The notes under the pieces are model-generated. The model was given only the letters and a program-made list of their open reading frames with translations. It did not search any database and was not told the DNA's origin. The position numbers and the translations under genes are program-made. From NCBI RefSeq assembly GCF_008831285.2, contig NC_045139.1, forward strand, positions 33,143,706 to 33,207,705: a stretch of 64,000 nucleotides of DNA, in the 5' to 3' direction. The stretch comes from Nymphaea colorata (lineage: Eukaryota > Streptophyta > Magnoliopsida > Nymphaeales > Nymphaeaceae). Positions 15,442 through 60,063 of the stretch are shown here, in pieces. Within the stretch, counting starts at the first letter, position 1. Each line of letters begins with the position of its first letter.

Positions 15442-18400
15442 TGTCACGCCCCGACCTTTTTAACCCTCAAACTATTTTTTTTTTTTTCTCAAAACATAAA
15501 GCATCGAGATGTGACTACCAAACAATTCAAATTGACGATGAGCCAAGCAATTCAAAACAATGGGGCGAACTTTCATTAATATAACCATTTTGTTTCATAC
15601 AAATTCACATCTATGTGCATGACCAAAATGCCCCAAAATCAATAACATTGATGCCTAACAAAAAGAAGACATCAATAAAACCAAAACATGACGCGCCGGC
15701 ACTACAAACGACAATCCCGAAACCACCCCAGTAGGACGTGAGTGAAGCCATCCGCTCAACCTGTTGCCCCGGGTCCGCCAAAACCTGAAAAAGAAAACAA
15801 CTGAAGGCTCAGCCTTCGCAGTATGGCAACAAGCCAGAAAAATGCCAAACCCTCTCAAGTAAGGCTCAAATAAAGGGACAAATATCAACCCATCTATCGT
15901 CATGTCGCGTCTGAGTGCGACACGTAAAAGCCACTTGATGGCCACACTAACACAACATCAGTCACATGCGAAGCATGCTTAAACATAACACTTGCATTCA
16001 TATCAATCACATATACGTCAGTCACATGCATTCTGTCAAACACTTTGCATTTTCATTAACTTTAGTGCATTAACAGTTCCTGTGGGTGCAACACAGGCAC
16101 GTGCACACCGCGGGCGGCCTACAGCCGAGAGACAACCCCCGTGGTGGCCCATAACAGTATGGATCCATTTCACCCGCTGCAGCGGTAGAGCACTCATCCC
16201 TGGATGTGTGACGTCCAAGGTGAGATACTCAGCCTTCCCTAGGACACCCAGGTTGGGAAGGCAGGAGCCCAACGCTCCAAGCACAACACACAACAGAACC
16301 CTGGGGCCTTGCACCGCCTGCGCTCTGACAGGCGAGACCAGTGGCAATCAAGGGGGACGTCTCCCAAACACATAGCTACATCCCACTGGCCTCTCATCTC
16401 TTAGTTATTCATTCTTATCATTACAGTTACACATTCACAAGAAGACTGGCTAACACACGAGGTTAGTACACTTCCCGAGTGCACCCACACCTCCGATTAC
16501 CTCCACATGAGGTCTATACATACAGTAACAGTCATTGCTAGCCGTCATACCATACGGGTACAACTACCCTCCAAACATCCATTTGCATCATTGCCCATGG
16601 CAATGCATATGCAACAACATACACATTTATATCAATCATCACATCAGTCATGTCAATCACCTCTTTGAAAAACATAGCCAATCCACGGAGAGTAGTCTCG
16701 ATCTGCGGTTGGCTCGTAGCTGTCCTATGCAGTTATCATTCTATGATGCTTTCTAATGCACAATTGGGGTCGAGGAGACACTCGACTCGATACCCCACCT
16801 CATCTGTCCTAAACAGATATCAATTCTAGCATGCACATGCCAATGCGTAACATTTTTAAATCGAATGACTAATAATCTTTCTAACCCATTCATATCATGT
16901 AAGCAACATACACATACTCAATCACAAAACCGTCAATCAATTAACATCACAATCCTAGGATCCCTTGATCCTAGGAGCACCCAATCACACAATTGCCCCA
17001 GGCAGGAATTTGCCTGGAAAGTTGCCATACCTGTGGCGCGCTCACCAAATTCTTCAAAATGCCTCAAGCTTCGAACTCAAGGTCGACGGGATGAGCCCGG
17101 TGCACCTGCAAACATAAACAAGAATAAGGTTTCTACTAGATTCTTACACCAATCAACCAGAAATGAACAGATACAAAAATAAAATCCTTGAGGCACGTGT
17201 CAGCGCCTCAAGAGGGCATCGACAGGTAGTGTCGACCAACGGGCTCTCCACAAGGCCTCCTCCTTTACGTCTTGACGTTGCCTTGAATTATCAAGGCCTT
17301 CAACCATCAATCAAACCGTCACTAAATCCTTCCTCAATAACGTTCTTTAAGTAAGACATCAACCTCAAGTCACATCCCAAAACGCATATATCCCTAATTA
17401 ACTTCATGATACACCCGTTCACCGAAGTCTGCGCTACACTCCCTAAGACGGTTCCAAAACTTCCCCACAACCTCACAATCTCTACCATGTTTCCTTAAAG
17501 CTTCGAAACTTAATCCATCATGCTAAAACGATCATTAAGTACGTGAATCATCACTTTCCAACGCAAATCCTAAGTTTCCCCCAAAAACAAAATTACTAAC
17601 ATGCGTCCCAAAATCATCAATTCTAAGCTCTAGCATGCTCGAACCATAATTATACATGCTCTAAAAGATAAATACTCATCATTTTGAGCTTGATTAGGTA
17701 TTGCTCACCCCAAACAAGCGTCCAAACTGCTACAACCCTTCTAGCAACCACTTAACACGTCCGATCAAGTGCCAATGCTCGAGATTGCTTGCTGTCGCTG
17801 CTCACTACACACCCTACTAGCAGGTAAGAGGGGAAAAACGTCCCCTAAACTGCAAACCAACCCCAAACGCCCAAAAAGTTTAACACAAACTCTGTTGCTA
17901 GGAAAGACCCACGGTAGTAGTTGGGGAAAAAAAACTGAAATAAACAAAGAAAAGGGACGCTGACAGAGAGGAGAGACAGAGAGAGGAAGGGTTCGGTCAA
18001 GGGGGAAAACAGCCGTGGGGTGAGAAGAGAGAGAAAGAGCATGCGGGGGAGTGCGGGTGAGTGAGAAGAGGGTCGAGCGGTAGAGAACCAGCGGAAAGAG
18101 GGGAAAGAAAATGGCGAGAGAGAAGAAGAGGGGACGTGCGGCAGAGAGCAAAACAGAAAAAAGGGCATGAGTGGCAGAGCAAGAAAAATCGCACGAGAGA
18201 GAGAGGGTTTACCCAGCAGCCGCCGCCGCCGTCGCCGCTGCCACCTCCGTCGCCGTCGCCGTCGCCGTTCCAGCCACCACCACCCGACCGTCACTCTCCT
18301 CCCTCTGCGCTGCCACAGGAGACCACCGGAGACAACGAAGAAGGAAGGGAAAAGCGAGGGAGAAGGGCCTCGTGTCGGGCCCTTACGCGAGTGGGGGTCG

Positions 18401-18454
18401 GTTCCGGGTCTGGACCCTAGCTCGACCCGACCCGTCGAACCAACGAGCATTACA
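15442..18454 (-). repeat. 3' LTR of the retrotransposon
   Basis: The downstream LTR on the element strand, 3,013 bp. It differs from the other LTR by about 16 substitutions and a 6-bp gain in a CGCCGT-type run near 18250. The frames at 17765-18450 are LTR sequence repeated in the other LTR and are not genes. Confidence 0.95.
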
Positions 18455-18466
18455 TCCTACCCTCCT
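18455..18466 (-). promoter_or_regulatory. polypurine tract
   Basis: AGGAGGGTAGGA on the minus strand directly abuts the 3' LTR. This is where plus-strand synthesis is primed in LTR elements. Confidence 0.8.
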
Positions 18467-18503
18467 AAAAAGAAAATTTCGTCCTCGAAATTTAGCTCAT
18501 ACC

Positions 18504-21500
18504 TCAATGCAAGAACAAGTGCGGATATCTCTTCCGCATGTCCTCCTCATGCTCCCATGTACTCTCCTTCAACCCATGGTACTGCCATTCCACTTTCACT
18601 AAAGGAATCCTCTTGGTGCGAAGCACTTGCTCTCGATGATCCACAATTCTAATGGGCTGTTCTTCCATTGTCAAATCATCTTGTACTAGAATACCTTGAA
18701 AATCAATCACATGTGTCGGGTCGGGTACGTATTTTCGAAGCATGGAAACATGGAAAACGTCATGAACATGACTCAAATCTGGTGGTAACGCCAATCTGTA
18801 TGCCACCTCTCCAATCTTCTCTAATATCTCAAAAGGTCCTACAAACCTCGGGCTCAATTTTCCCTTCGCACCAAAGCGAAAAACACCCTTAGTAGGAGAA
18901 ATCTTTAAAAACACATGATCACCCACCTCAAAAGCCAATTCTCTACGACGAATGTCAGCATAACTTTTCTGTCTACTCTGAGCAGTCAACAACTTCTTTC
19001 TTATCAATTCCACTTGGTCGGTATAGTGTTGCAAAACTAAAGGGCTTTCGATCTTACCATCACCCAATTCGGCCCAACAAGTTGGCGATCTGCACGGTCT
19101 TCCATACAAAGCCTCAAAAGGTGCCATCCCAATACTAGAGTGGTAACTGTTATTGTAAGCAAATTCTGCCAGTTTCACATGTTTGTCCCATTCTCCTTTC
19201 CACTCTAAGACACATGCACGCAACATGTCTTCTAAGGTCTGAATAGTCCTCTCTGATTGCCCATCAGTTTGGGGATGAAATGCTGTGCTCATCTTAAGCT
19301 TGGTACCCAAAGCCCTCTGTAATTGCCCCCAAAACCTAGAGGTAAAACGCGGATCTCGATCCGAAATGATAGACTTTGGCACTCCATGCAATCTCACTAT
19401 CTCGCCAATATACAACTCTGCGAGACTTTCTAATGATTGACTGATTCTGATTGGCAGAAAGTGGGCGGACTTCGTAAGTCGATCAACAATCACCCATATG
19501 GCATTCTGTTGTCTTTTGGTACGAGGTAACCCAACCACAAAATCCATCGTAATGTCTTCCCATTTCCACACTGGAATATCGATTCTTTGCAACAAGCCTC
19601 CTGGCCGCTGATGTTCTGCTTTTACCTGTTGGCAAATCAAGCACTTTGCCACATATTCTGCAATTTCACGCTTCATTCCAGGCCACCAAAAATTTCTTCT
19701 CAAATCTTGAAACATCTTTGTACTGCCCGGGTGAATAGAAAACTTAGATTTGTGAGCTTCATCAAGCAACAGACGCTTCACCCCTTCATCTCTAGGAACC
19801 CATAATCTCTGCCGAAAACGCAATGAACCATCTTCATCTTGATGCCAAAGAGAATCGTTCTTCTGGCTTGCTTCCATGTTCTTAGCAAACTCTGGATCTT
19901 CCTTTTGTTTCATTACAAGTTCTTCCATCAAAGGACGCCGAATCAAGGCCGTCATCGTTGCCTTGTGCTCATCACAAATGCAAGGCTGCCAAGCTATCAC
20001 ATCTTGCAATAATGTCCAAGAACGAGTCAACATACTGCACATTGTCGCCTTGGCATGCCTGCTCAACGCATCTGCCACCACGTTCGTCTTGCCTGGATGA
20101 TACGATATGGTGAAATCATAATCCTTTAAATATTCCATCCATCTTCTTTGCCTCAAGTTGAGATCCTTTTGTGAGGATGTATACTTCAGGGACTTGTGAT
20201 CTGTAAACACCTCGAATGTTACACCATAAAGATAGTGTCTCCACATCTTCAATGCGAACACGACTGCTCCCAATTCCAAATCATGAGTGGGATAGTGCTG
20301 CTCATGGGTCTTCAACTGTCTTGATGCATAAGCCACTACACGGCCATGCTGCATCAACACACAACTATAACCGATCCCCGAAGCATCAGTGTACACCACA
20401 AAACCGGAATGACCTGATGGAAGCGTCAGAATAGGGGCAGAAGTAAGCTTGTCCTTTAGAGTTTGAAAACTCTTCTCACAATCTTCATTCCACACAAACT
20501 TCATCCCTTTTCTCAATAGCTTAGTCATGGGCGTAGCTATTTTCGAAAAGTCTTGTATGAACCTGCGATAGTATCCTGCCAATCCCAAAAAGCTTCTAAC
20601 CTCAGTTACACTGCAAGGTGTTCTCCAGTCCTGAACAGCTGACACCTTAGCCGGATCGACGGATACTTCATCCTTCGAGATCACATGACCCAGAAAGTTT
20701 ACCTTCTCTAGCCAAAATTCACATTTTGAGTATTTGGCGTAAAGCTTGTGCTTGCGCAGAAGACCTAACACACTTCTCAAGTGGTCTCTGTGCTCTGCCT
20801 CACTCTCTGAGTACACCAAAATATCATCAACAAACACAATAACAAAACAATCCAAGAACTCTTGGAAAACCCGATTCATGAGGTCCATGAACGCTGCGGG
20901 AGCATTAGTCAACCCAAAAGGCATGACCCTGAATTCATAATGTCCATACCTAGTTCAAAAGGCAGTCTTAGAAACATCTTCCTCCCGTATCAATAGTTGA
21001 TGGTAGCCTGTCCTCAGATCGATCTTAGAGAAAACCTTTGCATTCCTAAGCTGATCAAACAAGTCTTCAATTCTTGGAAGCGGATACTTATTCTTGATGG
21101 TGACTTGATTCAACATACGATAATCTATACACAAGCGCATAGTCCCATCTTTCTTTTTCACAAACAGTACAGGTGCTCCCCAAGGAGACACGCTAGGTCG
21201 GATGAAGCCCTTATCTAAGAGCTCCTGCAGTTGCTTCTTCAACTCTTCTAACTCTGCTGGTGCCATACGGTAGGGTGCCTTAGAAATGGGAGTTGTCCCT
21301 GGTAACAACTCTATCTTGAACTCCACTTCTCGAGTTGGAGGCAAACTCGACAATTCCTCAGGAAACACATCAGGATACTCACTCACCACGGCAACATCCT
21401 GCAATATCATCCGTTCAGCCTCATTGATCAACACATTGACCAAGAAGGCAACGCTTCCACCTTCTATCCATCGCTTAGCCTTCAATGCAGACACCAATAT

Positions 21501-23111
21501 CTTATCAGTTCGACTGGCCCTACGTGCACGAAATTCCACAGGCTGCATCTCATTAGTCAACATCTGTATCTGCTTCTTCCTGCAATCTATAATGGCATAA
21601 TGCGCATACAACCAATCCATACCCAAAATCACATCAAACTCATTGAGACCGAGGATCACCAACTGTGCAGGTAGGTGAAATTGAAGGATTTCCACGTCCA
21701 CATCAGGAAGATACTCACGACACGACTCTTGAGCATGCATCGGACTAACAACTTTTAAAACATACGGCATTCTTCTAGCCGACACTTCGAGTGAGGTAGC
21801 AAATCGACTAGATATAAAAGAATGTGTCGCTCCTGGATCAAATAACACTCTAGCAAAATGAGAACTGACAAGTAAAGTACCTTCAACGAGGTCGTGTGCC
21901 TGGAGCTCCTCCACAGTAGTAGCGTAGACACGTCCCGACGTCTGTCGTGCGCTAGAAGAACCGGCTTCAGGCTTCTTCAATTCTCGTTCTTTCTTCAACG
22001 GGCAATCCTTGATGAAGTGTCCCATACTTCCGCAGTGTAAACAAGCCCCAGTCACCCGATAGCACGGCTTCCCGAGGTGCACACGAGAACAAGTGGGGCA
22101 CTTCTGAGAAGTCGGAGTGGCCACTGACCCCTGGGTGGCCTCACTACGGGTAGACTGGTTCCGTCTGAAAGTTCGGTCATCCCGCCTCTCATAAGGCCTT
22201 GTCCTGCCCGCAAAGTGTTGGCGCTTTACCTGTGTCCGTCCACCTTGTGAATGCTGGCCTGCTTTCTTCTGATGATCCTTCTGTGTCCTCACCCAATCTT
22301 CTTCTATGCATCGTGCCATTGTAACCGCCTCATCCAAGTCACGAGGTCTACTTGTCAACACTTTGCTTCGTAGTCCATCTCGCAGCCCGCGCACAAACTT
22401 GCCCGCTCTGGCCTCATCGGTAGTGTAAAGGTGTGGGCAATACACCTCCAAGTGCCGATATCTCGTAATGTACTCTTCTAAGCTCGACTGATTCTGCTGC
22501 AAATCCAGAAACTCCTGCATTTTCTTGTCTCTGGCATACACCGGAAAGTATGTGCTGAAGAAGGAATCTCTGAACTGCTTCCATGAGATTGACCATTGGC
22601 CAGCGAACCGAATCTCACTAGTTGATTGCCACCAATTCTTGGCATCACCCTTCAACAAATAGGAGCCATAGTTCACTCTATCTTCTTCTGGCACCTTCAA
22701 AAGCCCAAAAATACGTTCAACCTCTTCAATCCAGTCCTTTGCCTTGTCATGACTGCCCCCTCCTGAGAAGATAGGCGGCTGCATCGCCATAAACTGCTGA
22801 TAAGACACTGTCGTTGCCTTCTCCCGAACTGGAGCACTGGTGTCCCCCGAAGGAGATGCGTTACTTCTCTGATTACCGACCATAGACTGCATTAACGTGG
22901 TCAGCGTCTGCAGCGTGGTCAGCAATATAGTCTGCTGATCCACTGGCGGAGTCTGTCTCGGTGGGGTTTGGGCACCCCCACCTAGCTGTGCATACTGGGG
23001 CTCTGACGCACTGTCACCCCGCGGAGTATGTGCATCAGAATGGGTTGGGCTGGGCTCTCTATGTGCCTCTGAAGACGGCCCAGCTCGCTTCTTACCCCTC
23101 TGTACAAACAA
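18504..23111 (-). pseudogene. gag-pol polyprotein with one in-frame stop
   Basis: One frame of about 1,535 codons, interrupted only by a TGA at 20955-20957 inside the reverse transcriptase, just before the [12 protein letters not shown] motif. Counting from 23111: gag capsid region about 105-280, zinc knuckle [14 protein letters not shown] 357-370, protease [10 protein letters not shown] about 423-432, then RT with FVDDILVYS, RNase H ([12 protein letters not shown]), integrase zinc finger ([11 protein letters not shown]) and core ([13 protein letters not shown]), and a chromodomain-like tail ending near YPHLFLH. The frame opens with TTG at 23111 after an in-frame stop; the first ATG is about codon 74, so the true start is uncertain. 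This copy should not make a full polyprotein by itself but could be mobilised by relatives. The domain calls are secure. Confidence 0.93.
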
Positions 23112-23319
23112 GATCCTTAATTCTCAAATCACGACCAATACCAAACTCACAAGTCAAATCACAACGTGCATTAGCACGAAGTTCAAAACACAGATCACAT
23201 TACATACCTATACTTGAAAAATCAAAACTACAATAACCAACTAATCAAACAAATGCGTATCTGGGCAACACGACTTCACAAATAGGCTTTAACTCACATC
23301 CATAATGGGGTTTGCCATG

Positions 23320-23331
23320 GCTCTGATACCA
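23320..23331 (-). promoter_or_regulatory. primer-binding site for initiator tRNA-Met
   Basis: TGGTATCAGAGC on the minus strand, four bases inside the 5' LTR. It is complementary to the 3' end of plant initiator tRNA-Met, the usual primer of many plant LTR elements. Confidence 0.92.
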
Positions 23332-23335
23332 AAAC

Positions 23336-26300
23336 TGTCACGCCCCGACCTTTTTAACCCTCAAACTATTTTTTTTTTTTCTCAAAACATAAAGCATCGA
23401 GATGTGACTACCAAACAATTCAAATTGACGATGAGCCAAGCAATTCAAAACAATGGGGCGAACTTTCATTAATATAACCATTTTGTTTCATACAAATTCA
23501 CATCTATGTGCATGACCAAAATGCCCCAAAATCAATAACATTGATGCCTAACAAAAAGAAGACATCAATAAAACCAAAACATGACGCGCCGGCACTACAA
23601 ACGACAATCCCGAAACCACCCCAATAGGACGTGAGTGAAGCCATCCGCTCAACCTGTTGCCCCGGGTCCGCCAAAACCTGAAAAAGAAAACAACTGAAGG
23701 CTCAGCCTTCGCAGTATGGCAACAAGCCAGAAAAATGCCAAACCCTCTCAAGTAAGGCTCAAATAAAGGGACAAATATCAACCCATCTATCGTCATGTCG
23801 CGTCTGAGTGCGACACATAAAAGCCACTTGATGGCCACACTAACACAACATCAGTCACATGCGAAGCATGCTTAAACATAACACTTGCATTCATATCAAT
23901 CACATATACGTCAGTCACATGCATTCTGTCAAACACTTTGCATTTTCATTAACTTTAGTGCATTAACAGTTCCTGTAGGTGCAACACAGGCACGTGCACA
24001 CCGCGGGCGGCCTACAGCCGAGAGACAACCCCCGTGGTGGCCCATAACAGTATGGATCCATTTCACCCGCTGCAGCGGTAGAGCACTCATCCCTGGATGT
24101 GTGACGTCCAAGGTGAGATACTCAGCCTTCCCTAGGACACCCAGGTTGGGAAGGCAGGAGCCCAACGCTCCAAGCACAACACACAACAGAACCCTGGGGC
24201 CTTGCACCGCCTGCGCTCTGACAGGCGAGACCAGTGGCAATCAAGGGGGACGTCTCCCAAACACATAGCCACATCCCACTGGCCTCTCATCTCTTAGTTA
24301 TTCATTCTTATCATTACAGTTAAACATTCACAAGAAGACTGACTAACACACGAGGTTAATACACTTCCCGAGTGCACCCACACCTCCGATTACCTCTACA
24401 TGAGGTCTATACATACAGTAACAGTCATTGCTAGCCGTCATACCATACGGGTACAACTACCCTCCAAACATCCATTTGCATCATTGCCCATGGCAATGCA
24501 TATGCAACAACATACACATTTATATCAATCATCACATCAGTCATGTCAATCACCTCTTTGAAAAACATAGCCAATCCACGGAGAGTAGTCTCGATCTGCG
24601 GTTGGCTCGTAGCTGTCCTATGCAGTTATCATTCTATGATGCTTTCTAATGCACAATTGGGGTCGAGGAGACACTCGACTCGATACCCCACCTCATCTGT
24701 CCTAAACAGATATCAATTCTAGCATGCACATGCCAATGCGTAACATTTTTAAATCGAATGACTAATAATCTTTGTAACCCATTCATATCATGTAAGCAAC
24801 ATACACATACTCAATCACAAAACCGTCAATCAATTAACATCACAATCCTAGGATCCCTTGATCCTAGGAGCACCCAATCACACAATTGCCCCAGGCAGGA
24901 ATTTGCCTGGAAAGTTGCCATACCTGTGGCGCGCTCACCAAATTCTTCAAAATGCCTCAAGCTTCGAACTCAAGGTCGACGGGATGAGCCCGGTGCACCT
25001 GCAAACATAAACAAGAATAAGGTTTCTACTAGATTCCTACACCAATCAACCAGAAATGAACAGATACAAAAATAAAATCCTTGAGGCACGTGTCAGCGCC
25101 TCAAGAGGGCATCGACAGGTAGTGTCGACCAACGGGCTCTCCACAAGGCCTCCTCCTTTACGTCTTGACGTTGCCTTGAATTGTCAAGGCCTTCAACCAT
25201 CAATCAAACCGTCACTAAATCCTTCCTCAATAACGTTCTTTAAGTAAGGCATCAACCTCAAGTCACATCCCAAAACGCATATATCCCTAATTAACTTCAT
25301 GATACACCCGTTCACCGAAGTCTGCGCTACACTCCCTAAGACGGTTCCAAAACTTCCCCACAACCTCACAATCTCTACCATGTTTCCTTAAAGCTTCGAA
25401 ACTTAATCCATCATGCTAAAACGATCATTAAGTACGTGAATCATCACTTTCCAACGCAAATCCTAAGTTTCCCCCAAAAACAAAATTACTAACATGCGTC
25501 CCAAAATCATCAATTCTAAGCTCTAGCATGCTCGAACCATAATTATACATGCTCTAAAAGATAAATACTCATCATTTTGAGCTTGATTAGGTATTGCTCA
25601 CCCCAAACAAGCGTCCAAACTGCTACAACCCTTCTAGCAACCACTTAACACGTCCGATCAAGTGCCAATGCTCGAGATTGCTTGCTGTCGCTGCTCACTA
25701 CACACCCTACTAGCAGGTAAGAGGGGAAAAACGTCCCCTAAACTGCAAACCAACCCCAAACGCCCAAAAAGTTTAACACAAACTCTGTTGCTAGGAAAGA
25801 CCCACGGTAGTAGTTGGGGAAAAAAAACTGAAATAAACAAAGAAAAGGGGCGCTGACAGAGAGGAGAGACAGAGAGAGGAAGGGTTCGGTCAAGGGGGAA
25901 AACAGCCGTGGGGTGAGAAGAGAGAGAAAGAGCAGGCGGGGGAGTGCAGGTGAGTGAGAAGAGGGTCGAGCGGTAGAGAACCAGCGGAAAGAGGGGAAAG
26001 AAAATGGCGAGAGAGAAGAAGAGGGGACGTGCGGCAGAGAGCAAAACAGAAAAAAGGGCATGAGTGGCAGAGCAAGAAAAATCGCACGAGAGAGAGAGGG
26101 TTTACCCAGCAGCCGCCGCCGCCGTCGCCGCTGCCACCTCCGTCGCCGTCGCCGTTCCAGCCACCACCACCCGACCGTCACTCTCCTCCCTCTGCGCTGC
26201 CACAGGAGACCACCGGAGACAACGAAGAAGGAAGGGAAAAGCGAGGGAGAAGGGCCTCGCGTCGGGCCCTTACGCGAGTGGGGGTCGGTTCCGGGTCTGG

Positions 26301-26341
26301 ACCCTAGCTCGACCCGACCCGTCGAACCAACGAGCATTACA
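23336..26341 (-). repeat. 5' LTR of the retrotransposon
   Basis: The upstream LTR on the element strand, about 3,006 bp; its promoter should drive transcription leftward. The right edge (GAGCATTACA, then GATAT) is next to the MHF1 fragment. A plus-strand frame at 26060-26455 runs from the LTR in frame through MHF1 exon 2; it is probably fortuitous. Confidence 0.95.
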
Positions 26342-26366
26342 GATATTGAAACCCAGATATCGGCAG

Positions 26367-28266
26367 CTGGGAAGTATGCAATGGAAGTGTCCCAGCCGGT
26401 CGTTTCATGCATCGCCGATCTCGCTTTCAAATTCACAGGTACGAGGGAAAACTGAAGTGGAATTTCATTTTTGCTATGGTTTGGTGAATGGCGAGATTCT
26501 GTTTCTTGACTACTCTTGCACTATGAAAAATTGGTTTCCTTTTGTTGTTCTCTGTTTGGATATTGCGGGGTTGGAGTTATCTAGGATTGTCGAACCTTTC
26601 CTCTTCTGAGTAAGCGACAAGCAGGTCACTTGAGTCTTTTATGTTTCTGCATCTAGGCTTGGAATCGGAATTGTCTATCTGATCTTCACGTCCTTTCTTT
26701 GGAGGATTCACGTGGAAAATTTGACTTGTTTCAATGAATTAAGCTGTTTTTCTTGAATGATTGTTACAGCACACTGCTAGTTTGCAACTAATGAAGTGTT
26801 ATGAGAGACGACACCCCCTCGATCTGTTTAACAAGCGGAAAAAACTAACAGGCCTGTCAATGCTATGAATCCAAACATGAAATGGATCCGGATCTAAAGA
26901 GCATACATCAATCGGATACGATGCAACCACACGCAATCATGGCCTCATGGGAGAGAGCAAAAATCATGGGATCACACATCAGCAGGGAGCACAGCAAGAT
27001 AGACAAGCCAAGAGCGTAAGATCTGGGATTGAAAAAGATAAATATGACAATCTTGTGAAAATGGAAAGAGGAGATAATGATAATTCAAATGAGACCACTA
27101 CAATCAAGGAAATGAATACGAGAATGGAAACCTCCCAATGATTGATTAAGTTGGAGGCATTGTGGATGTAGCAGAATACTCAGTACTACGTTAAAAGACT
27201 TTCTTCTTGCTTTTTGAATTTTCTGTCATGATATCAGAGACAGTGCTCATGTTTGGTGGAGTAACCATTCCTTAAGAAGCAAATGTTGCCCCTTTTGGGT
27301 TCTCATTTGCTCTTTCCATTCTAAGGACACCAAGAACAGGACAACCTGCTCCTGGTAAGGGTAATCCTATCTACAACGTATTTTAGAAGGGACTTCATGG
27401 TTAGCCCGTCAGCACATCAAGTAGCCTGAACCTGGCATACCAATCCTAGTTTATAGCCGGGTGCTTGTTGGTCAGGGTGTGAATTTGCTGCCCAGCACAT
27501 ATGAGCTGGGTCTTCAGTCTTGGGCTACCTGTTCAGCCCGTTGTCTAGCTCTATTGTACATTTGATGTTCACGGAAATATAAGTACCGGTTCATTTTTTT
27601 ACCTAATATATTTCTTTATGTAATATTTTTTGTCAGTTTTTTCCAAGATCGCATCTTTAGATTTAAAAATATCTTTGTACAAAATTTAGGAACTCTATAA
27701 TACTTTATATTATGTTATGTGTACATTACCTATATTATTTTGTACAGTGTGGGCTATGAAATGGACTTTTACAACATTGGTTTGATACTTTGATGTAATA
27801 GACTGAATATATCATGGGATAAAGAACAAACAGATTCATGAATTTGTATATATACTCCATTGTGTATGAGAAAGCAATGAATTTTGGTAAGGGATTATAA
27901 AAATAAGGACCATGGGAATCATGCTTCTATTTCCCCTCTTTCTCTCTTCTGGTTAATATTGCACTATCAATTAAAATTTGGATTGGACAGAATGCTCATT
28001 GAACGGTGTGCCTAGTTCACTTCAAATTGCAAGTTCTCTAGCTGGCTCGTTCTCCAAGCGAAAGTTCAAATTCCAAAACCATTTCACATCTTGGTCTAAG
28101 CAGAAAGAAGTTATGTTATTTTTGCGACTCATCTATACAAAGGCTGTTCAGTTGGGAATGACACCATTATATGTTTTTGGGTTTAAGGAATTTTTGACGA
28201 ATCAATTGTGTGTGAGTGCAAGCATGTATGTGTTTTGCATTTTTCAGGTGTGTGTAACTTGATTCC
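26367..28266 (+). pseudogene. MHF1: MHF1 fragment, copy A (exon 2 and intron 2 only)
   Basis: Exon 2 (26367-26438, GKYAMEVSQPVVSCIADLAF) and intron 2 match the intact gene at 54443 onward, ending at 28266, shortly before the exon 3 acceptor. Exons 1, 3 and 4 are missing, so no histone-fold protein can be made. At eight sites noticed across intron 2 it agrees with copy B and differs from the intact gene. The frames at 26947-27141 and 27978-28262 are intronic. Confidence 0.93.
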
Positions 28267-29696
28267 GCACTTGATGTCAACTTGAAGTAGGGCCTCTTAT
28301 CTTTATGAGGACACGTGACTCTTCTCTTTAAGAGGATAAGTGTGATGACAAGTTATGTAATGCTTATATTCAAAATATTTTATTTTTGAAAGCATTGAAG
28401 TATTTATAATAATTTACTGTATTTAGTATGGAGAGATAAGGGGTTGGGTGGAAACTTCACTCTTTTTTTGGGTGGTGGGAAACCCGCTCAACCATATCAC
28501 ATACTAATGACAAAGTTAAGCATCGAATTATTGCGATTTGAATGACATAGAAGAGCCCTTGCACATAAAAAAAAAAGGGACAACCAAACATATTTCTCGA
28601 ATATTCAATACAATGGAAGACCAAATAAGTGAATATGATGCCTAACTAACAAGAGATATCTAAAATATATGACTAATTCGCTTATTCCACGTCTTAAATG
28701 GAATTTAATAATGCAAACCGTTGTCATTTTTTAGGAGGGAATCATCCCTTAGTCGCACGCATGTGCATAACGGAAAATTGGTAAAAACCATACCAAGGAC
28801 AAAAAATAGACTCATCAAAATTAATCAATAAAATATTTGTTCTACAACCTAACCTTTATAAATATGATACTAATAGTGATTTGGTGAGAAACATATATTA
28901 AGTTAATAATTTCTTCACTTTGATCACGTATCCTTAGTAACAACAAATTGGATGGCTTTTACGGCATCAAGATTCTGATAGTAGAAATGATAAAATTTTG
29001 CAATAAAAATGATTTGAATTAAAACATAATTTAGTGTTTATAAATACATCGAGAGGTACCCATTTTGTTTAAGACACATTTAAGAGGTATGGTTTTTATC
29101 CTTTACTCTAGTGCATGGTATTTACCAATCTCTCTCTTTTTCTTTAGATGCAAATGGTTCGATTCGGTCTGCATTTAACTTTTATTAATTTGTTCTCAAT
29201 CAAATCATATGCAATCAGACTTGAATTTAGATTTTTATGTTTTCAAAACTCTACGTGGTTCCGACTAGCTTAAGACCCGTCATCTATTTGTAACCAGGTC
29301 GGGCCCTTATCAAATCTAACCAAATCAAATAGACAAATACAAATGTCAAATCTTATTCTACTTGTTTAAAAATTTGAGCACGTTCCAAATCCAAATACGA
29401 TTACATATAATCTAATTGAGTCGAATCCAGTAAAAGCTGGATCCAACCCAAACCAGAACATGAGAGAGAAAGTCAACATTTGAAAAGAAAGAACAAACTA
29501 AGTGCTAGAAATGGCAAAAGCATAATAAAACCAACCAAGAATGCCGAGCGCGAGACAAAGAAACCGCGGAGAACAAGTTCTTCCGTATTGAATGACAAAG
29601 ATTTCTCTTATTTGATATTTACTTAGAACCTTTCTACCCAGGGAACAGAACGTTCCCCCTCTCCCCTTGCGTTCATGAGCTGCTTTCATCGTCCGT
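28267..29696. other. 1.43-kb segment of unknown origin in the left arm
   Basis: It joins the MHF1 fragment to the UTP7 leader copy and is present inverted at 34005-35435, but it does not occur between or beside MHF1 and UTP7 at the source locus. It is AT-rich with no coding frame of note. Neither clear terminal repeats nor a target duplication was found, so its nature is open. Confidence 0.75.
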
Positions 29697-32600
29697 GGCG
29701 CTAGGTTTTTCCTTTGTTTTTTCCTCTCTCCCTCGCGTCTCCCCTCTCTCTCTCTCTCTCTCTCAGGCGTCGTACGGCAAACTCCAAGTTCTCTCTCCCT
29801 CTCAAGCACGCAGGTTGCACTCTCCCGCCCTCTTTTAACTCGCCTGCTGCAGTCTTCTGTAGTTCGCCATCCCCCTCGCAGGTAACCCTAACCTCTCTCT
29901 CTCTGTCTCTCACTTTCTCTCTCCCCTTGTCTGTTGCGGCAGAAGAAGGGCGTAACGTATTATCGTAGCGATCAGACATGGTTCTCCTCGATGCAACGTC
30001 TCAACTTTAGGCTATTCTGGCGCTAGGTTTTTCCTTTTTTTTTTCCTCTCTCCCTCGCGTCTCCCCTCTCTCTCAGGCGTCGTACGGCAAACTCCAAGTT
30101 CTCTCTCCCTCTCGAGCACGCAGGTTTCCTCTCTCCCTCGCGTCTTCCCTCTCTCTCAGGCGTCATACGACAAACTCCAAGTTTTCTCTCTCTCTCGAGC
30201 ACGTAGGTTGCACTCTCCCGCCCTCTTTTAACTTGCCTGCAGCAGTCTTCTGCAGTTCGCCATCCCCCTCGCAGGTAACCCTAACCTCTCTCTCTCTGTC
30301 TCTCACTCTCACTCTCTCTCTCCCCTTGTCTGCCAAGGGCGTAACGTATTATCGTAGTGATCAGACATGGTTCGCCTCGATGCAACGTCTCAACTTTAGG
30401 CTATTCATTTGCTTCAGTGAGGCTGGACGACGGATATGGACCTAAAAAGGATAAGTGGTCTCACAAACATATACTTTTTCTGTTGAATCGTTTTAGACAG
30501 TGATATCGTGATATTGACTCTTGCTCTGAGCAAATAATGGTTATCACAGTACTAGTGTTCCAAGTTTTCTCTCCCTCTCGAGCACGTAGGTTGCACTCTC
30601 CCGCCCTCTTTTAACTCGCCTGCAGCAGTCTTCTGCAGTTCGCCATCCCCCTCGCAGGTAACCCTAACCTCTCTCTCTCTGTCTCTCACTATCACTCTCT
30701 CTCTCCCCTTGTCTGCCAAGGGCGTAACGTATTATCGTAGTGATCAGACATGGTTCGCCTCGATGCAACGTCTCAACTTTAGGCTATTCATTTGCTTCAG
30801 TGAGGCTGGACGACGGATATGGACCTAAAAAGGATAAGTGGTCTCACAAACATATACTTTTTCTGTTGAATCGTTTTAGACAGTGATATCGTGATATTGA
30901 CTCTTGCTCTGAGCAAATAATGGTTATCACAGTACTAGTGTTCCAAGTTTTCTCTCCCTCTCGAGCACGTAGGTTGCACTCTCCCGCCCTCTTTTAACTC
31001 GCCTGCAGCAGTCTTCTGCAGTTCGCCATCCCCCTCGCAGGTAACCCTAACCTCTCTCTCTCTGTCTCTCACTATCACTCTCTCTCTCCCCTTGTCTGCC
31101 AAGGGCGTAACGTATTATCGTAGTGATCAGACATGGTTCGCCTCGATGCAACGTCTCAACTTTAGGCTATTCATTTGCTTCAGTGAGGCTGGACGACGGA
31201 TATGGACCTAAAAAGGATAAGTGGTCTCACAAACATATACTTTTTCTGTTGAATCGTTTTAGACAGTGATATCGTGATATTGACTCTTGCTCTGAGCAAA
31301 TAATGGTTATCACAGTACTAGTGTTCCAAGTTTTCTCTCCCTCTCGAGCACGTAGGTTGCACTCTCCCGCCCTCTTTTAACTCGCCTGCAGCAGTCTTCT
31401 GCAGTTCGCCATCCCCCTCGCAGGTAACCCTAACCTCTCTCTCTCTGTCTCTCACTATCACTCTCTCTCTCCCCTTGTCTGCCAAGGGCGTAACGTATTA
31501 TCGTAGTGATCAGACATGGTTCGCCTCGATGCAACGTCTCAACTTTAGGCTATTCATTTGCTTCAGTGAGGCTGGACGACGGATATGGACCTAAAAAGGA
31601 TAAGTGGTCTCACAAACATATACTTTTTCTGTTGAATCGTTTTAGACAGTGATATCGTGATATTGACTCTTGCTCTGAGCAAATAATGGTTATCACAGTA
31701 CTAGTGTTCCAAGTTTTCTCTCCCTCTCGAGCACGTAGGTTGCACTCTCCCGCCCTCTTTTAACTCGCCTGCAGCAGTCTTCTGCAGTTCGCCATCCCCC
31801 TCGCAGGTAACCCTAACCTCTCTCTCTCTGTCTCTCACTATCACTCTCTCTCTCCCCTTGTCTGCCAAGGGCGTAACGTATTATCGTAGTGATCAGACAT
31901 GGTTCGCCTCGATGCAACGTCTCAACTTTAGGCTATTCATTTGCTTCAGTGAGGCTGGACGACGGATATGGACCTAAAAAGGATAAGTGGTCTCACAAAC
32001 ATATACTTTTTCTGTTGAATCGTTTTAGACAGTGATATCGTGATATTGACTCTTGCTCTGAGCAAATAATGGTTATCACAGTACTAGTGTTCCAAGTTTT
32101 CTCTCCCTCTCGAGCACGTAGGTTGCACTCTCCCGCCCTCTTTTAACTCGCCTGCAGCAGTCTTCTGCAGTTCGCCATCCCCCTCGCAGGTAACCCTAAC
32201 CTCTCTCTCTCTGTCTCTCACTATCACTCTCTCTCTCCCCTTGTCTGCCAAGGGCGTAACGTATTATCGTAGTGATCAGACATGGTTCGCCTCGATGCAA
32301 CGTCTCAACTTTAGGCTATTCATTTGCTTCAGTGAGGCTGGACGACGGATATGGACCTAAAAAGGATAAGTGGTCTCACAAACATATACTTTTTCTGTTG
32401 AATCGTTTTAGACAGTGATATCGTGATATTGACTCTTGCTCTGAGCAAATAATGGTTATCACAGTACTAGTGTTCCAAGTTTTCTCTCCCTCTCGAGCAC
32501 GTAGGTTGCACTCTCCCGCCCTCTTTTAACTCGCCTGCAGCAGTCTTCTGCAGTTCGCCATCCCCCTCGCAGGTAACCCTAACCTCTCTCTCTCTGTCTC

Positions 32601-33193
32601 TCACTATCACTCTCTCTCTCCCTTGTCTGCCAAGGGCGTAACGTATTATCGTAGTGATCAGACATGGTTCGCCTCGATGCAACGTCTCAACTTTAGGCTA
32701 TTCATTTGCTTCAGTGAGGCTGGACGACGGATATGGACCTAAAAAGGATAAGTGGTCTCACAAACATATACTTTTTCTGTTGAATCGTTTTAGACAGTGA
32801 TATCGTGATATTGACTCTTGCTCTGAGCAAATCATGGTTATCACAGTACTAGTGTTAGAAAAAACAGCTGGTCTTCGTAGTTTTGATTAATGTTGGTCGT
32901 ATTGGTTAGTTTGTTGGAAAAATCGGAAAGACTCCTGAAACGTAGTAAATTATCACTCGAGCAGCAATTTCAGGTAACTACAGTATTCTACAAAAGACTA
33001 TAGGTCACGAGGCTGTCTTCCAGACAACAAATCCAAGTTATCATGGTTTCTGGTACAAGAGCAGGTTTTTAAATATGATAGAGAATTGCTAGGAGCTTAA
33101 TATCGGTTTTGGAGATTTTAGTTGGTTCTTGTGTGTGTGTGTGTGTGTTTTTGTTTTGGTTTACATCAGGAAAAAAACAAATGTCCACATAAT
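29697..33193 (+). repeat. copy of the UTP7 5' leader region, expanded
   Basis: This is homologous to the reverse complement of 51423-52410, the region upstream of the UTP7 start codon, and so reads rightward in UTP7 sense. Compared with the source, one 383-bp segment is repeated seven times, and about 145 bp (near 32918-33061) is present that the source lacks. Each leader copy has a GC-rich pyrimidine exon-like part and CGCAG/GTAACC, a good splice-donor context. The UTP7 coding exons are not included. Confidence 0.85.
30176..32855 (+). repeat. tandem array, seven units of 383 bp
   Basis: Unit starts (TCCAAGTTTTCTCTC) fall at 30176, 30559, 30942, 31325, 31708, 32091 and 32474, exactly 383 bp apart; the last unit is 382 bp (one C fewer). 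Units 2-6 look identical. Unit 1 has a few changes, and unit 7 keeps AAATCATGG as in the single source unit at 51607-51989, while the others have AAATAATGG. Each unit holds a UTP7 leader segment with a possible splice donor (CGCAG/GTAACC). Confidence 0.96.
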
Positions 33194-33886
33194 TTGGAAA
33201 TATATTTCTGGAAATATAGGAAATATAAAAATGAAATGGGAAAAATCTTTTCGGTTCCAATTTTGGTATGTGTTTGATTTGTTGGAAATATATTTCCAAT
33301 TCTATATTTCTGAGTTTGATGGTATAGAAATATATTTCTAGATTTGAGCACATATTAAGAACAATGAGCAAATCTACTAGAAAAGACCTGAACCTATTTG
33401 AAATTCTACGAAAGGATAGTGTAGGATTGTGAGAACTCATAAACTTAAACCTTCTGAAATCCTAACTGTGCTCATTTTATGCAACTGCATTTGAGGAGGA
33501 AATCAAAATTACACATCTTCGTCCATTTTATGCAATTGCATTTGAAAGCAATTGAATACTGATCACACGTTGGCCATTATATAACAGCCCTTCCCATCAA
33601 TGTATTTTATTTTGATTCTGGTACCAAAAGAAAGGAAGAAACCAAAATAATTATAATAATGATAATAACGCCACAATCAATATAAGAAATTCATTGTGAA
33701 TTGGCTAGAAGCAAATTCATACATTTTTTAATGTTTTAGTCCAACTGCAACAAGGCAGCTAATTTTGCTGGACTGTCTTTGGAGAAATTTTCAGAATTTG
33801 AATTTTTTCTCTTCTGCTACAGTACTTTTCTCTTCTGCTACAGTACTATCATATAATAGTTTCTACGTTCAACAGGAAGACAACTT
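33194..33886. other. AT-rich remainder of the inverted-repeat spacer
   Basis: Non-coding. Positions 33194-33345 hold several foldback copies of GGAAATATATTTC. Positions 33820-33877 hold a duplicated CTCTTCTGCTACAGTACT motif and the 30-bp stretch shared with 14539-14568, suggesting MITE remnants next to the inner edge of the right arm. Confidence 0.5.
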
Positions 33887-36800
33887 GGAGAGTGCAACCT
33901 GCGTGCTCGAGAGGGAGAGAGAACTTGGAGTTTGCCGTACTACGCCTGAGAGAGAGGGGAGACGCGAGGGAGAGAGGAAAAAAACAAAGGAAAAACCTAG
34001 CGCCACGGATGATGAAAGCAGCTCATGAACGCAAGGGGAGAGGGGGAACGTTCTGTTCCCTGGGTAGAAAGGTTCTAAGTAAATATCAAATAAGAGAAAT
34101 CTCTGTCATTCAATACGGAAGAACTTGTTCTCCGCGGTTTCTTTGTCTCGCGCTCGGCATTCTTGGTTGGTTTTATTATGCTTTTGCCATTTCTAGCACT
34201 TAGTTTGTTCTTTCTTTTCAAATGTTGACTTTCTCTCTCATGTTCTGGTTTGGGTTGGATCCAGCTTTTACTGGATTCGACTCAATTAGATTATATGTAA
34301 TCGTATTTGGATTTGGAACGTGCTCAAATTTTTAAACAAGTAGAATAAGATTTGACATTTGTATTTGTCTATTTGATTTGGTTAGATTTGATAAGGGCCC
34401 GACCTGGTTACAAATAGATGACGGGTCTTAAGCTAGTCGGAACCACGTAGAGTTTTGAAAACATAAAAATCTAAATTCAAGTCTGATTGCATATGATTTG
34501 ATTGAGAACAAATTAATAAAAGTTAAATGCAGACCGAATCGAACCATTTGCATCTAAAGAAAAAGAGAGAGATTGGTAAATACCATGCACTAGAGTAAAG
34601 GATAAAAACCATACCTCTTAAATGTGTCTTAAACAAAATGGGTACCTCTCGATGTATTTATAAACACTAAATTATGTTTTAATTCAAATCATTTTTATTG
34701 CAAAATTTTATCATTTCTACTATCAGAATCTTGATGCCGTAAAAGCCATCCAATTTGTTGTTACTAAGGATACGTGATCAAAGTGAAGAAATTATTAACT
34801 TAATATATGTTTCTCACCAAATCACTATTAGTATCATATTTATAAAGGTTAGGTTGTAGAACAAATATTTTATTGATTAATTTTGATGAGTCTATTTTTT
34901 GTCCTTGGTATGGTTTTTACCAATTTTCCGTTATGCACATGCGTGCGACTAAGGGATGATTCCCTCCTAAAAAATGACAACGGTTTGCATTATTAAATTC
35001 CATTTAAGACGTGGAATAAGCGAATTAGTCATATATTTTAGATATCTCTTGTTAGTTAGGCATCATATTCACTTATTTGGTCTTCCATTGTATTGAATAT
35101 TCGAGAAATATGTTTGGTTGTCCCTTTTTTTTTTTATGTGCAAGGGCTCTTCTATGTCATTCAAATCGCAATAATTCGATGCTTAACTTTGTCATTAGTA
35201 TGTGATATGGTTGAGCGGGTTTCCCACCACCCAAAAAAAGAGTGAAGTTTCCACCCAACCCCTTATCTCTCCATACTAAATACAGTAAATTATTATAAAT
35301 ACTTCAATGCTTTCAAAAATAAAATATTTTGAATATAAGCATTACATAACTTGTCATCACACTTATCCTCTTAAAGAGAAGAGTCACGTGTCCTCATAAA
35401 GATAAGAGGCCCTACTTCAAGTTGACATCAAGTGCGGAATCAAGTTACACACACCTGAAAAATGCAAAACACATACATGCTTGCACTCACACACAATTGA
35501 TTCGTCAAAAATTCCTTAAACCCAAAAACATATAATGGTGTCATTCCCAACTGAACAGCCTTTGTATAGATGAGTCGCAAAAATAACATAACTTCTTTCT
35601 GCTTAGACCAAGATGTGAAATGGTTTTGGAATTTGAACTTTCGCTTGGAGAACGAGCCAGCTAGAGAACTTGCAATTTGAAGTGAACTAGGCACACCGTT
35701 CAATGAGCATTCTGTCCAATCCAAATTTTAATTGATAGTGCAATATTAACCAGAAGAGAGAAAGAGGGGAAATAGAAGCATGATTCCCATGGTCCTTATT
35801 TTTATAATCCCTTACCAAAATTCATTGCTTTCTCATACACAATGGAGTATATATACAAATTCATGAATCTGTTTGTTCTTTATCCCATGATATATTCAGT
35901 CTATTACATCAAAGTATCAAACCAATGTTGTAAAAGTCCATTTCATAGCCCACACTGTACAAAATAATATAGGTAATGTACACATAACATAATATAAAGT
36001 ATTATAGAGTTCCTAAATTTTGTACAAAGATATTTTTAAATCTAAAGATGCGATCTTGGAAAAAACTGACAAAAAATATTACATAAAGAAATATATTAGG
36101 TAAAAAAATGAACCGGTACTTATATTTCCGTGAACATCAAATGTACAATAGAGCTAGACAACGGGCTGAACAGGTAGCCCAAGACTGAAGACCCAGCTCA
36201 TATGTGCTGGGCAGCAAATTCACACCCTGACCAACAAGCACCCGGCTATAAACTAGGATTGGTATGCCAGGTTCAGGCTACTTGATGTGCTGACGGGCTA
36301 ACCATGAAGTCCCTTCTAAAATACGTTGTAGATAGGATTACCCTTACCAGGAGCAGGTTGTCCTGTTCTTGGTGTCCTTAGAATGGAAAGAGCAAATGAG
36401 AACCCAAAAGGGGCAACATTTGCTTCTTAAGGAATGGTTACTCCACCAAACATGAGCACTGTCTCTGATATCATGACAGAAAATTCAAAAAGCAAGAAGA
36501 AAGTCTTTTAACGTAGTACTGAGTATTCTGCTACATCCACAATGCCTCCAACTTAATCAATCATTGGGAGGTTTCCATTCTCGTATTCATTTCCTTGATT
36601 GTAGTGGTCTCATTTGAATTATCATTATCTCCTCTTTCCATTTTCACAAGATTGTCATATTTATCTTTTTCAATCCCAGATCTTACGCTCTTGGCTTGTC
36701 TATCTTGCTGTGCTCCCTGCTGATGTGTGATCCCATGATTTTTGCTCTCTCCCATGAGGCCATGATTGCGTGTGGTTGCATCGTATCCGATTGATGTATG

Positions 36801-37343
36801 CTCTTTAGATCCGGATCCATTTCATGTTTGGATTCATAGCATTGACAGGCCTGTTAGTTTTTTCCGCTTGTTAAACAGATCGAGGGGGTGTCGTCTCTCA
36901 TAACACTTCATTAGTTGCAAACTAGCAGTGTGCTGTAACAATCATTCAAGAAAAACAGCTTAATTCATTGAAACAAGTCAAATTTTCCACGTGAATCCTC
37001 CAAAGAAAGGACGTGAAGATCAGATAGACAATTCCGATTCCAAGCCTAGATGCAGAAACATAAAAGACTCAAGTGACCTGCTTGTCGCTTACTCAGAAGA
37101 GGAAAGGTTCGACAATCCTAGATAACTCCAACCCCGCAATATCCAAACAGAGAACAACAAAAGGAAACCAATTTTTCATAGTGCAAGAGTAGTCAAGAAA
37201 CAGAATCTCGCCATTCACCAAACCATAGCAAAAATGAAATTCCACTTCAGTTTTCCCTCGTACCTGTGAATTTGAAAGCGAGATCGGCGATGCATGAAAC
37301 GACCGGCTGGGACACTTCCATTGCATACTTCCCAGCTGCCGAT
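33887..37343 (-). repeat. right arm of the large inverted repeat
   Basis: These 3,457 bp are the reverse complement of the left arm: UTP7 leader start (33887-34004), the 1.43-kb segment (34005-35435) and MHF1 intron 2 plus exon 2 (35436-37343). MHF1 homology continues beyond the arm to about 37892 (exon 1 and promoter), so this side is the more complete copy. Confidence 0.93.
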
Positions 37344-37577
37344 GCAAACAAAATCAGGGAAAAAGGAAAAAGACGAAGAATAAAAAAAAAACGAAATGAC
37401 GAGAGAGCGCGTTCTTGGAGAAAGGAAAAGCGAAATCCAGCCAGAAATTAGACCTTCCGACTCCGCGATCTTAATTACGGCGAGGCGGACTCGATCCCCT
37501 AGCTCCCCGGATACGGGATCGTCGCGATCATCGGGATGCGGCTCGTCCCTCTGGAAATCGCCATCTTCCTCTGCCAT
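35436..37577 (-). pseudogene. MHF1: MHF1 fragment, copy B (exons 1 and 2)
   Basis: Exon 1 (37577-37454, ATG retained), intron 1, exon 2 (37335-37264) and most of intron 2; homology ends at the same base as in copy A, so exons 3 and 4 are absent. One exon 1 codon differs from the intact gene (GELGDRVR here, GELRDRVR at 54201), replacing an Arg that is conserved in plant relatives as I recall them. The open frame can give only the first part of the histone fold. Its 5' flank matches the MHF1 promoter, so leftward transcription into the inverted repeat is plausible. Confidence 0.92.
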
Positions 37578-37892
37578 TTCTTTCTCAGCGAAGGGCGGGA
37601 AAAGAGGCGGTCGTCGCCAGAAGGGTATAAATAAGGGGAGAAGCCCGCGCAACTGTGGGTTTTGAACCGCCTCGGGCAAGACACGGGGCAGGTCCTAGTG
37701 GGAAGCTCCAACCCGGTCCGAAGATGTGAGGAAACGGTTGGTTTTTCAAGGGAAATTTATTTTTTCCGGTCAACTTTTCTTATAATTTCAAAAAGACGAT
37801 CAATATTTCGCAATTTATCTAATGCGGGCGATATTGTTTAGGAATATTATCAAATAAAGGGATAAAATAGAGTTCCTGTAACTAAGGCCATG
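37578..37892 (-). promoter_or_regulatory. duplicate of the MHF1 5' flank
   Basis: This matches 53890-54200 upstream of intact MHF1, including the TATTTATA box about 50 bp before the ATG. It could drive transcription leftward through right arm, spacer and left arm. The outer boundary is near 37886-37892, where homology to the source fades. Confidence 0.75.
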
Positions 37893-51048: not shown

Positions 51049-52410
51049 TTTTCCGCTTTATGCACAATCAAATGCTCCGTGTGATAAACTGCCAAAAAGA
51101 CATGCATCTAAGCCAACATTTAAAGCCTGCGAGATCTCAAGTTTTGAGAACCTTAAAGAGAAACAGTATTGGATCACATGAGAGGTCAGCAGGGGCAACT
51201 AATTGACAATTATCATTCCATCTAGGTGAAAACATAGAAGCGACGAACCAGACACTTGAAACACTAAAGAATCTCATAAAACCAAACATGCTTGAACCCT
51301 ACTTAAAAATTAAAGTAATCACGCTCTCCATCAGAGGTCATAAATAGATTAAAAGCCGCAATGACAACGAAAAAAATAAATAAAACACAGTATAGCTGAA
51401 TTCGCAAGGAGAATTTAGAACGATTATGTGGACATGTGTTTTTTTCCTGATGTAAACAAAAAAAAAACACACACACACACACACACAAGAACCAACTAAA
51501 ATCTCCAAAACCGATATTAAGCTCCTAGCAATGCTCTGTCATATTTAAAAACCTGACCAATACGACCAACATTAATCAAAACTACGAAGACCAGCTGTTT
51601 TTTCTAACACCAGTACTGTGATAACCATGATTTGCTCAGAGCAAGAGTCAATATCACGATATCACTGTCTAAAACGATTCAACAGAAAAAGTATATGTCT
51701 GTGAGACCACTTATCCTTTTTAGGTCCATATCCGTCGTCCAGCCTCACTGAAGCAAATGAATAGCCTAAAGTTGAGACGTTGCATCGAGGCGAACCATGT
51801 CAGATCACTACGATAATACGTTACGCCCTTGGCAGACAAGGGGAGAGAGAGTGTGAGAGTGAGAGACAGAGAGAGAGAGGTTAGGGTTACCTGCGAGGGG
51901 GATGGCGAACTGCAGAAGACTGCTTCAGGCGAGTTAAAAGAGGGCGGGAGAGTGCAACCTGCGTGCTCGAGAGGGAGAGAGAACTTGGAGTTTGCCGTAC
52001 GACGCCTGAGAGAGAGGGGAGACGCGAGGGAGAGAGGAAACCTGCGTGCTCGAGAGGGAGAGAGAACTTGGAGTTTGCCGTACGACGCCTGAGAGAGAGG
52101 GGAGACACGAGGGAGAGAGGAAAAAAAAGGAAAAACCTAGCGCCAGAATAGCCTAAAGTTGAGACGTTGCATCGAGGCTAACCATGTCTGATCACTACGA
52201 TAATAGGTTACGCCCTTCTTCTGCCGCAACAGACAAGGGGAGAGAGAGAGTGAGAGTGAGAGACAGAGAGAGAGGTTAGGGTTACCTGCGAGGGGGGATG
52301 GCGAACTGCAGAAGACTGCAGCAGGCGAGTTAAAAGAGGGCGGGAGAGTGTAACCTGCCTGCTCGAGAGGGAGACAGTTTGCCGTACGACGCCAGAGAGA
52401 GAGAGGGGAG
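51049..52410 (-). promoter_or_regulatory. UTP7 5' leader and upstream region (source of the 383-bp repeat)
   Basis: Upstream of the UTP7 ATG lies a pyrimidine-rich leader (minus strand) with a donor-like CGCAG/GTAACC near 51890 and acceptor-like TTTGGCAG near 51096, suggesting a 5' UTR intron. Positions 51607-51989 are the single copy of the unit repeated seven times at 30176-32855. A second, partial leader copy at about 52147-52400 shows that small duplication already exists here. Positions 51423-52410 are the part copied into the inverted-repeat locus. The leader is interrupted at about 52411 by a transposon-like insert. Confidence 0.7.
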
Positions 52411-59101: not shown

Positions 59102-60063
59102 GTTGTCACAAAAAACGCCGTTTTTTTTTAAAAAACGTGTATTTAACCCAAAAACAGTTCTGCCGTATAATACCCTACTATTCTCGTTTTTTTAAAAAAA
59201 ACGTCAACTTACAAAAAACGCGTATAATACCCATTTAATACCTGTATTATAAGACTTCATATCTTAAACTGTCAAAAGGTCTGATCTAAGAATGGAGGGA
59301 CGAGAGTTAGCTTAAATTTCGATTTCATGCCTTTGTGTTGTTTGGCTAGTTGAAAAGACAACGGTCCATATTGCATTTGAACTTGATGGCAGAAGAAGTC
59401 AATTTTTTTGTCAAAGCAACAAAAAACTTGCATTTTGGGAAATGACTGATGGTAAACACATACATTTGGCTTAGATTGAATCAGAAGCAACAGAATCGTA
59501 TATTTTATTCGTTGGCGGTGGTGGAGAAAGAATGGAATGCGTTTTGCGGCGTCACTTCGCACTTTAACTGGAAGCACAGATTCGTTTGATCGAATTAAAA
59601 AAAGTGGCGCGTGGGCGTGCTCATCCCATCTCCTCGTATCCTAATATTCCTACTTTTGTCTGCATGCCCTTTGACCGTTGGGAGATCTGCACTAGAGCCG
59701 TCACCGCCACCACCCCTTTAGCCTTTCTGCTTTGGTGAATCCAGCGTCACTTTTATGATTGATTTATAAGCAACGTGAACTTTAATGAGCATCTTTTGTA
59801 CGATTAATTAGTTATTTTTTATTTGAATAATGCTTTTAATAATAAAAATGAATGGTTTTATAACATCAAAATTTTGATAATAGAAAGATCAATTTCTTTT
59901 TTTTTTTTTTATAAAAATGACTTGAACTAAAGTCTGATTTATATTGAGTTAGTGTTTGTAGAGTATTAGAAGGTTTACATTTTACTTAAAAGACCTTTTA
60001 ACACAGATTTAAGAAGTCTGGTTTTTATTTCTTACTCAAGTAGTTTGGTATCTACCAATCATT

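Follow-up and report, generated by a model that had tools for sequence, protein, structure and literature searches.

A gene-fragment inverted duplication of MHF1 and UTP7-type leader sequence in Nymphaea colorata, probably young, with the anatomy of a possible hairpin-RNA locus

We analysed a stretch of 64,000 nucleotides of Nymphaea colorata DNA (hereafter the window; contig NC_045139.1, positions 33,143,706 to 33,207,705), which carries an 11-kb inverted repeat together with an intact copy of one of its source genes, MHF1 (CENP-S). The locus is a gene-fragment inverted duplication, a kind already known, whose arms combine part of MHF1 with 1.43 kb of sequence from another origin and the beginning of a leader of the type presumed for UTP7. 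The structure of the repeat, the relative divergence of its parts and the clustering of the differences between its arms are direct observations. On these grounds we favour, as the probable explanation, a young composite inverted duplication produced by local rearrangement, which is either recent or has arms that convert each other, and whose small interfering RNAs (siRNAs), if it is transcribed, would act mostly on the locus itself and on the DNA of MHF1 exon 2 and intron 2. We do not expect the locus to have a selected function.

Self-BLAST aligned 26359-29825 with 37343-33887 over 3469 columns at 99.48% identity (4 mismatches, 3 gaps, 6175 bits), a match far beyond chance, leaving a spacer of 4061 bp (29826-33886) between the arms. 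This confirmed the original prediction, made from the bare sequence, of two inverted arms of ~3.46 kb around a ~4.06-kb spacer within a span of 11 kb; the long near-perfect inverted repeat looked for in a hairpin locus is present here. From the outer to the inner end, each arm comprises MHF1 exon 2 with most of intron 2, the 1.43-kb segment (right-arm copy at ~34006-35435) and ~120-130 bp of UTP7-type leader. BLAST matches agreed in this respect with the predicted composition of MHF1 exon 2 plus intron 2, a foreign 1.43-kb segment and the UTP7 leader start. In the left arm, the MHF1 part reaches from 8 bp upstream of exon 2 to ~21 bp short of exon 3, and shares 1908 bp, with 8 mismatches, with the separate intact gene, as does its counterpart in the right arm. 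The left copy lacks exon 1 and the right copy has it. Within the right arm the MHF1 portion spans 35436-37343, and intron 1, exon 1 and the 5' flank extend past the arm to 37884, pointing into the repeat; the prediction that exon 1 and its 5' flank are retained there was borne out by the match of 35436-37884 to 56342-53894. At their inner ends the left arm continues into leader units and the right arm is cut. Coordinates are collected in Table 1.

Table 1 Positions, strands and supporting evidence of features in the window
Feature	Position	Strand	Evidence
Left arm of inverted repeat	26359..29825	+	BLAST, 99.48% to 37343-33887
Right arm of inverted repeat	33887..37343	-	Self-BLAST match to left arm
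MHF1 exon 2 and most of intron 2, left arm	26359..28266	+	8 mismatches/1908 to 54435-56342
MHF1 copy on right: 307 bp of 5' flank, exon 1, intron 1, exon 2, most of intron 2	35436..37884	-	12 mismatches/2449 to 56342-53894
Segment of other origin, left arm	28267..29696	+	Unmatched to intact MHF1/UTP7 loci of the window
UTP7-leader-like stretch, left arm end and spacer	29697..33193	+	Matches reversed 52405-51423 in pieces
Seven tandem 383-bp leader units in spacer	30176..32856	+	Tandem Repeats Finder, 7.0 copies, 99% matches
Truncated UTP7-type leader start at right arm inner end, facing that of left arm	33887..34005	-	BLAST and sequence inspection
31-bp inverted match to 14538-14568, 9 bp from right arm inner junction	33847..33877	-	30/31, E = 1e-6
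Intact MHF1/CENP-S gene, four coding exons (54201-54324, 54443-54514, 56364-56444, 56624-56751)	54201..56751	+	Coding sequence, Pfam, PDB
Presumed UTP7 leader region, source or sister of spacer leader units	51423..52409	-	Sequence matches; assignment by position
Ty3-type long terminal repeat (LTR) retrotransposon, 17 bp outside left arm	15442..26341	-	LTRs, GATAT on both sides, domains

The intact MHF1 gene has a coding sequence of 405 bp including the stop (134 aa), with GT/AG ends to its exons. Its protein matched Pfam CENP-S (E = 4.5e-17), and its PDB matches were to CENP-S in nine of nine sequences. The relevant parts of PMC4132730 describe Arabidopsis MHF1 as an anti-crossover factor weaker than FANCM. 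In exon 1 of the right copy, arginine 27, which stands second in the Pfam CENP-S match, is replaced by glycine, and the frame read beyond exon 2 terminates in GTREN-stop, so that a useful protein is unlikely. The other gene concerned, UTP7, was recognised from a C-terminal open reading frame (ORF) at 42685-43725 on the minus strand (PDB Utp7 at 4.7e-60; Pfam BING4CT), and 51.4-52.4 kb is presumed to be its leader by position and orientation alone. The spacer is largely of this leader-like sequence (29826 to ~32915, plus 33062-33193), and tandem units 2-7 showed zero substitutions over the 274-275 bp compared. Each 383-bp tandem unit corresponds to a copy of the leader exon with a GT donor and the AACCCTAACC word.

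Over the 1908 bp common to the three MHF1 copies, the two arms were identical (0 differences) and both differed from the intact gene at the same sites (8/8), making the arms more alike than either is to its paralogue. Outside the arm, the right copy differed from the intact gene at 4/541 sites; over its whole length, the longest stretch free of differences from that gene (932 of 2449 bp) was only weakly unusual (P = 0.041). Leader units were compared in the same way. The tandem units differed from the closest UTP7 leader unit (51950, minus strand) at 8-12 of 274-275 positions and from the other UTP7 unit at 34-37 of 255, and the first leader unit of the left arm showed 22/251 and 26/268 differences, respectively. 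Set against 8/1908 for MHF1, any of these pairings places the separation of the UTP7-derived sequence before that of the MHF1 sequence.

The few differences between the arms were not evenly placed. All four substitutions fell within the innermost 228 bp (29598-29825; ~2e-5 under an even spread), as did two of the three indels. The outer 3.24 kb held no substitutions and one single-base indel in a run of A, where the arm-parent divergence would predict ~13.6 substitutions (P = 1.3e-6). This inner clustering, and the agreement of the arms at all eight parent differences, are new here; together they indicate that the palindrome is younger than the copying of MHF1 or that the arms convert each other. 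Palindromes kept by conversion on the primate X and a willow sex chromosome likewise have arms >99% identical, as described in PMC8981503 and PMC7023750. Of the 7 arm/parent differences between G/C and A/T, 6 have G/C in the arms, as GC-biased conversion would favour. In contrast to those palindromes, the bias here has p = 0.125, without an outgroup, and recency explains the identity equally well. At three of the eight arm/parent differences the arms had CpG and the parent TpG or CpA (unpolarised, tiny sample), and the CG count was 36 in the arm versus 33 in the parent (1908 bp each). Prolonged methylation leaves C-to-T decay; no such footprint was seen in the arms, the eight differences being too few to judge.

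For the favoured origin by local rearrangement, we envisage that an older UTP7-leader copy with its upstream segment gained a 5' fragment of MHF1, so that the full unit (MHF1 5' part, segment, leader units) would have stood first on the left. About 4 kb of the outer part of this unit would then have been copied inverted to the right, most simply by template switching, giving rise to the two arms, and the left unit would afterwards have lost exon 1 and the promoter. The arms would still be almost identical because the event was recent or because they convert each other. The 31-bp stretch near the inner junction of the right arm (Table 1) reads, on thin evidence, like a template-switch insert.

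Several points weigh against this origin. The inner 228 bp holds more substitutions (4) than expected at the arm-parent divergence (P = 0.016). Such an excess does not sit well with MHF1 copying first and the palindrome forming later, unless one allows for conversion or for an edge that changes faster. Arm-to-arm conversion fading near the spacer fits both the outer identity and the inner excess; the same holds for a copy made very recently whose inner edge changes quickly, and for uneven read polishing. The arm/parent differences are unpolarised, with no outgroup, and the template-switch scar depends on a single 31-bp match. Furthermore, read polishing could have evened out the middles of the arms, and a selected hairpin would show the same anatomy.

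That the locus is an active hairpin-RNA locus, as the original prediction proposed, we consider unlikely. Here, a leftward transcript from the MHF1 promoter copy would fold into a 3.46-kb stem, and its siRNAs would lower the dose of MHF1 or direct methylation to it, with UTP7 as a possible further target by way of its leader. As had been predicted, the locus is built in the way a hairpin requires, with near-perfect arms and an MHF1 promoter copy aimed inwards, the last 220 bp of which before the ATG are identical to the intact gene. This copy carries the TTTATA and TTTCCCGC words, as in the intact gene, which we take to be TATA and E2F sites. Leftward reading from it would give fold-back double-stranded RNA (dsRNA), to be cut into siRNAs. 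In total, 1723 21-mers of the stem occurred in the MHF1 gene region, including all 52 of exon 2 and none of exons 1, 3 and 4, and 38 occurred in the UTP7 leader region. The inverted ARR17 fragments of Populus, which yield 24-nt siRNAs according to the parts of PMC9636151 on that locus, also speak for activity.

Other features limit what such a hairpin could do. In the tested MHF1 mRNA (start 54160, 3' untranslated region excluded), 54 of the 426 21-mers were found in the stem, 52 of them wholly in exon 2, which upheld the earlier claim that just 72 bp of spliced MHF1 mRNA is present in both arms. The MHF1 promoter lies outside the stem, so silencing must act via exon 2/intron 2 or by spreading, the direct routes being exon 2 cleavage and exon 2/intron 2 methylation. 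The siRNAs would mostly target the locus itself and the DNA of MHF1 exon 2 and intron 2, with little effect on MHF1 mRNA. Between the outer ends of the arms, the leftward strand contains six AATAAA and four ATTAAA words, and the six AATAAA motifs could end a transcript early; a full 11-kb transcript is therefore not assured. The lack of a cytosine-decay footprint in the arms (small sample) also counts against activity. A scan for splice acceptors leftward from exon 2 returned 0 sites and was uninformative, its pattern being so strict that it would miss the real exon 2 acceptor. Judged from the sequence, hairpin silencing of MHF1 is plausible, and control of crossovers by the locus is speculation. 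By our judgement, the prospect of siRNA production of some kind is evenly balanced, a measurable effect on MHF1 is quite improbable and an effect on crossovers highly improbable. We give equally little credence to a natural segregating hairpin locus that sets the dose of an anti-crossover factor, such that presence or absence of the palindrome would shift the crossover rate between individuals.

In the Arabidopsis PAI and soybean CHS inverted duplications, too, the inverted copies have relatives among other copies of the gene; whole genes are inverted there, in contrast to one exon plus intron here. At the Populus sex locus, inverted partial copies of ARR17 likewise coexist with an intact source gene elsewhere, and the relevant parts of PMC9636151 report 24-nt siRNAs and methylation of the target; the present locus, in contrast, is known from sequence and its target promoter lies outside the stem. 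Maize Mu killer, as presented in the corresponding parts of PMC3440606, is also a partial inverted gene duplication with a proposed fold-back RNA. It differs in that its target is a transposase gene, ~1.3 kb is inverted and silencing was shown genetically. Silencing plants in that system carried two short antisense transcripts, the long hairpin being a possible minor contributor (PMC3440606), so the acting transcript need not be a long hairpin. By analogy, such precedents make silencing here possible and do not show it. An MHF1 inverted-repeat or hairpin-siRNA locus did not turn up among the titles listed by one literature search, which is not proof of its absence from print.

A further explanation, which we regard as very doubtful, is that the segment and leader start of each arm act as facing promoters. 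These would drive RNA into the spacer, with overlap producing dsRNA over the leader units and run-through producing antisense of MHF1 exon 2 (plus exon 1 on the right), and UTP7 would then be the main target. In each arm the shared upstream segment leads into the leader start GGCGCTAGG, and the two starts face one another. Such UTP7-type leader starts aimed into the spacer from both arms, a feature that the original prediction overlooked, constitute a second possible source of dsRNA, an alternative to reading from the MHF1 promoter copy. However, the right leader is cut to ~119 bp and the 1.43-kb segment is a putative promoter only. Lastly, an assembly artefact, in which mis-joined or over-polished reads produced the inverted structure or the arm identity, is highly unlikely: the substitution-free 3.24 kb and the differences near one unique edge are what uneven polishing could give, but the 4.06-kb spacer is not that of a simple fold-back chimera, the arms are set apart by 4 substitutions and 3 indels, share 8 differences from the parent and are cut at unequal points on their outer sides.

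Should siRNAs be produced, the repeat would represent a natural silencing locus of very recent origin, directed against a gene that limits crossovers in meiosis and still accompanied by its intact source; the stem, the copied promoter and the target all lie within ~31 kb. Whether gene-fragment palindromes alter the recombination rate could then be tested directly. Even otherwise, the repeat shows in readable form how local rearrangement assembles such loci before selection acts.

The 1.43-kb segment was also considered as a transposon, and the captured unit as a Pack-type DNA transposon carrying gene fragments. At the settings used, 7-bp inverted seeds were not found within 120 bp of the ends of the segment; the flanks of the whole unit were inspected by eye. 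Two parts of the segment (28945-29130) resemble 59845-60060 (81% over 64 columns and 70% over 89), and from this similarity a piece of dispersed repeat may lie inside it. Between the UTP7 leader and the MHF1 promoter, 52410-53880 is insert-like and has short inverted seeds close to its ends. The first UTP7 leader unit breaks off at the start of this stretch, in contrast to the inverted-repeat locus, where the first unit is complete.

The window contains further rearrangements and elements. The LTRs of the retrotransposon next to the left arm (3 kb) differ by 16 mismatches over 3013 columns, and GATAT on both sides identifies it as a simple insertion that landed beside the end of the arm. Searches of Rfam at gathering thresholds and with ARAGORN at bacterial settings each gave 0 matches. 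A direct 2-kb duplication (7699-9726 and 57080-59101) is 98.8% identical with 15 mismatches, one copy lying just downstream of intact MHF1 and the other after a PPR gene; a target duplication was not visible at its ends. Haplotype duplication within the assembly was ruled out, as the repeated blocks (7.7/57.1 kb and 26.4/54.4 kb) differ in their order. A minus-strand ORF at 12591-13082 presumably resembles, from its residues, the start of an alpha-mannosidase.

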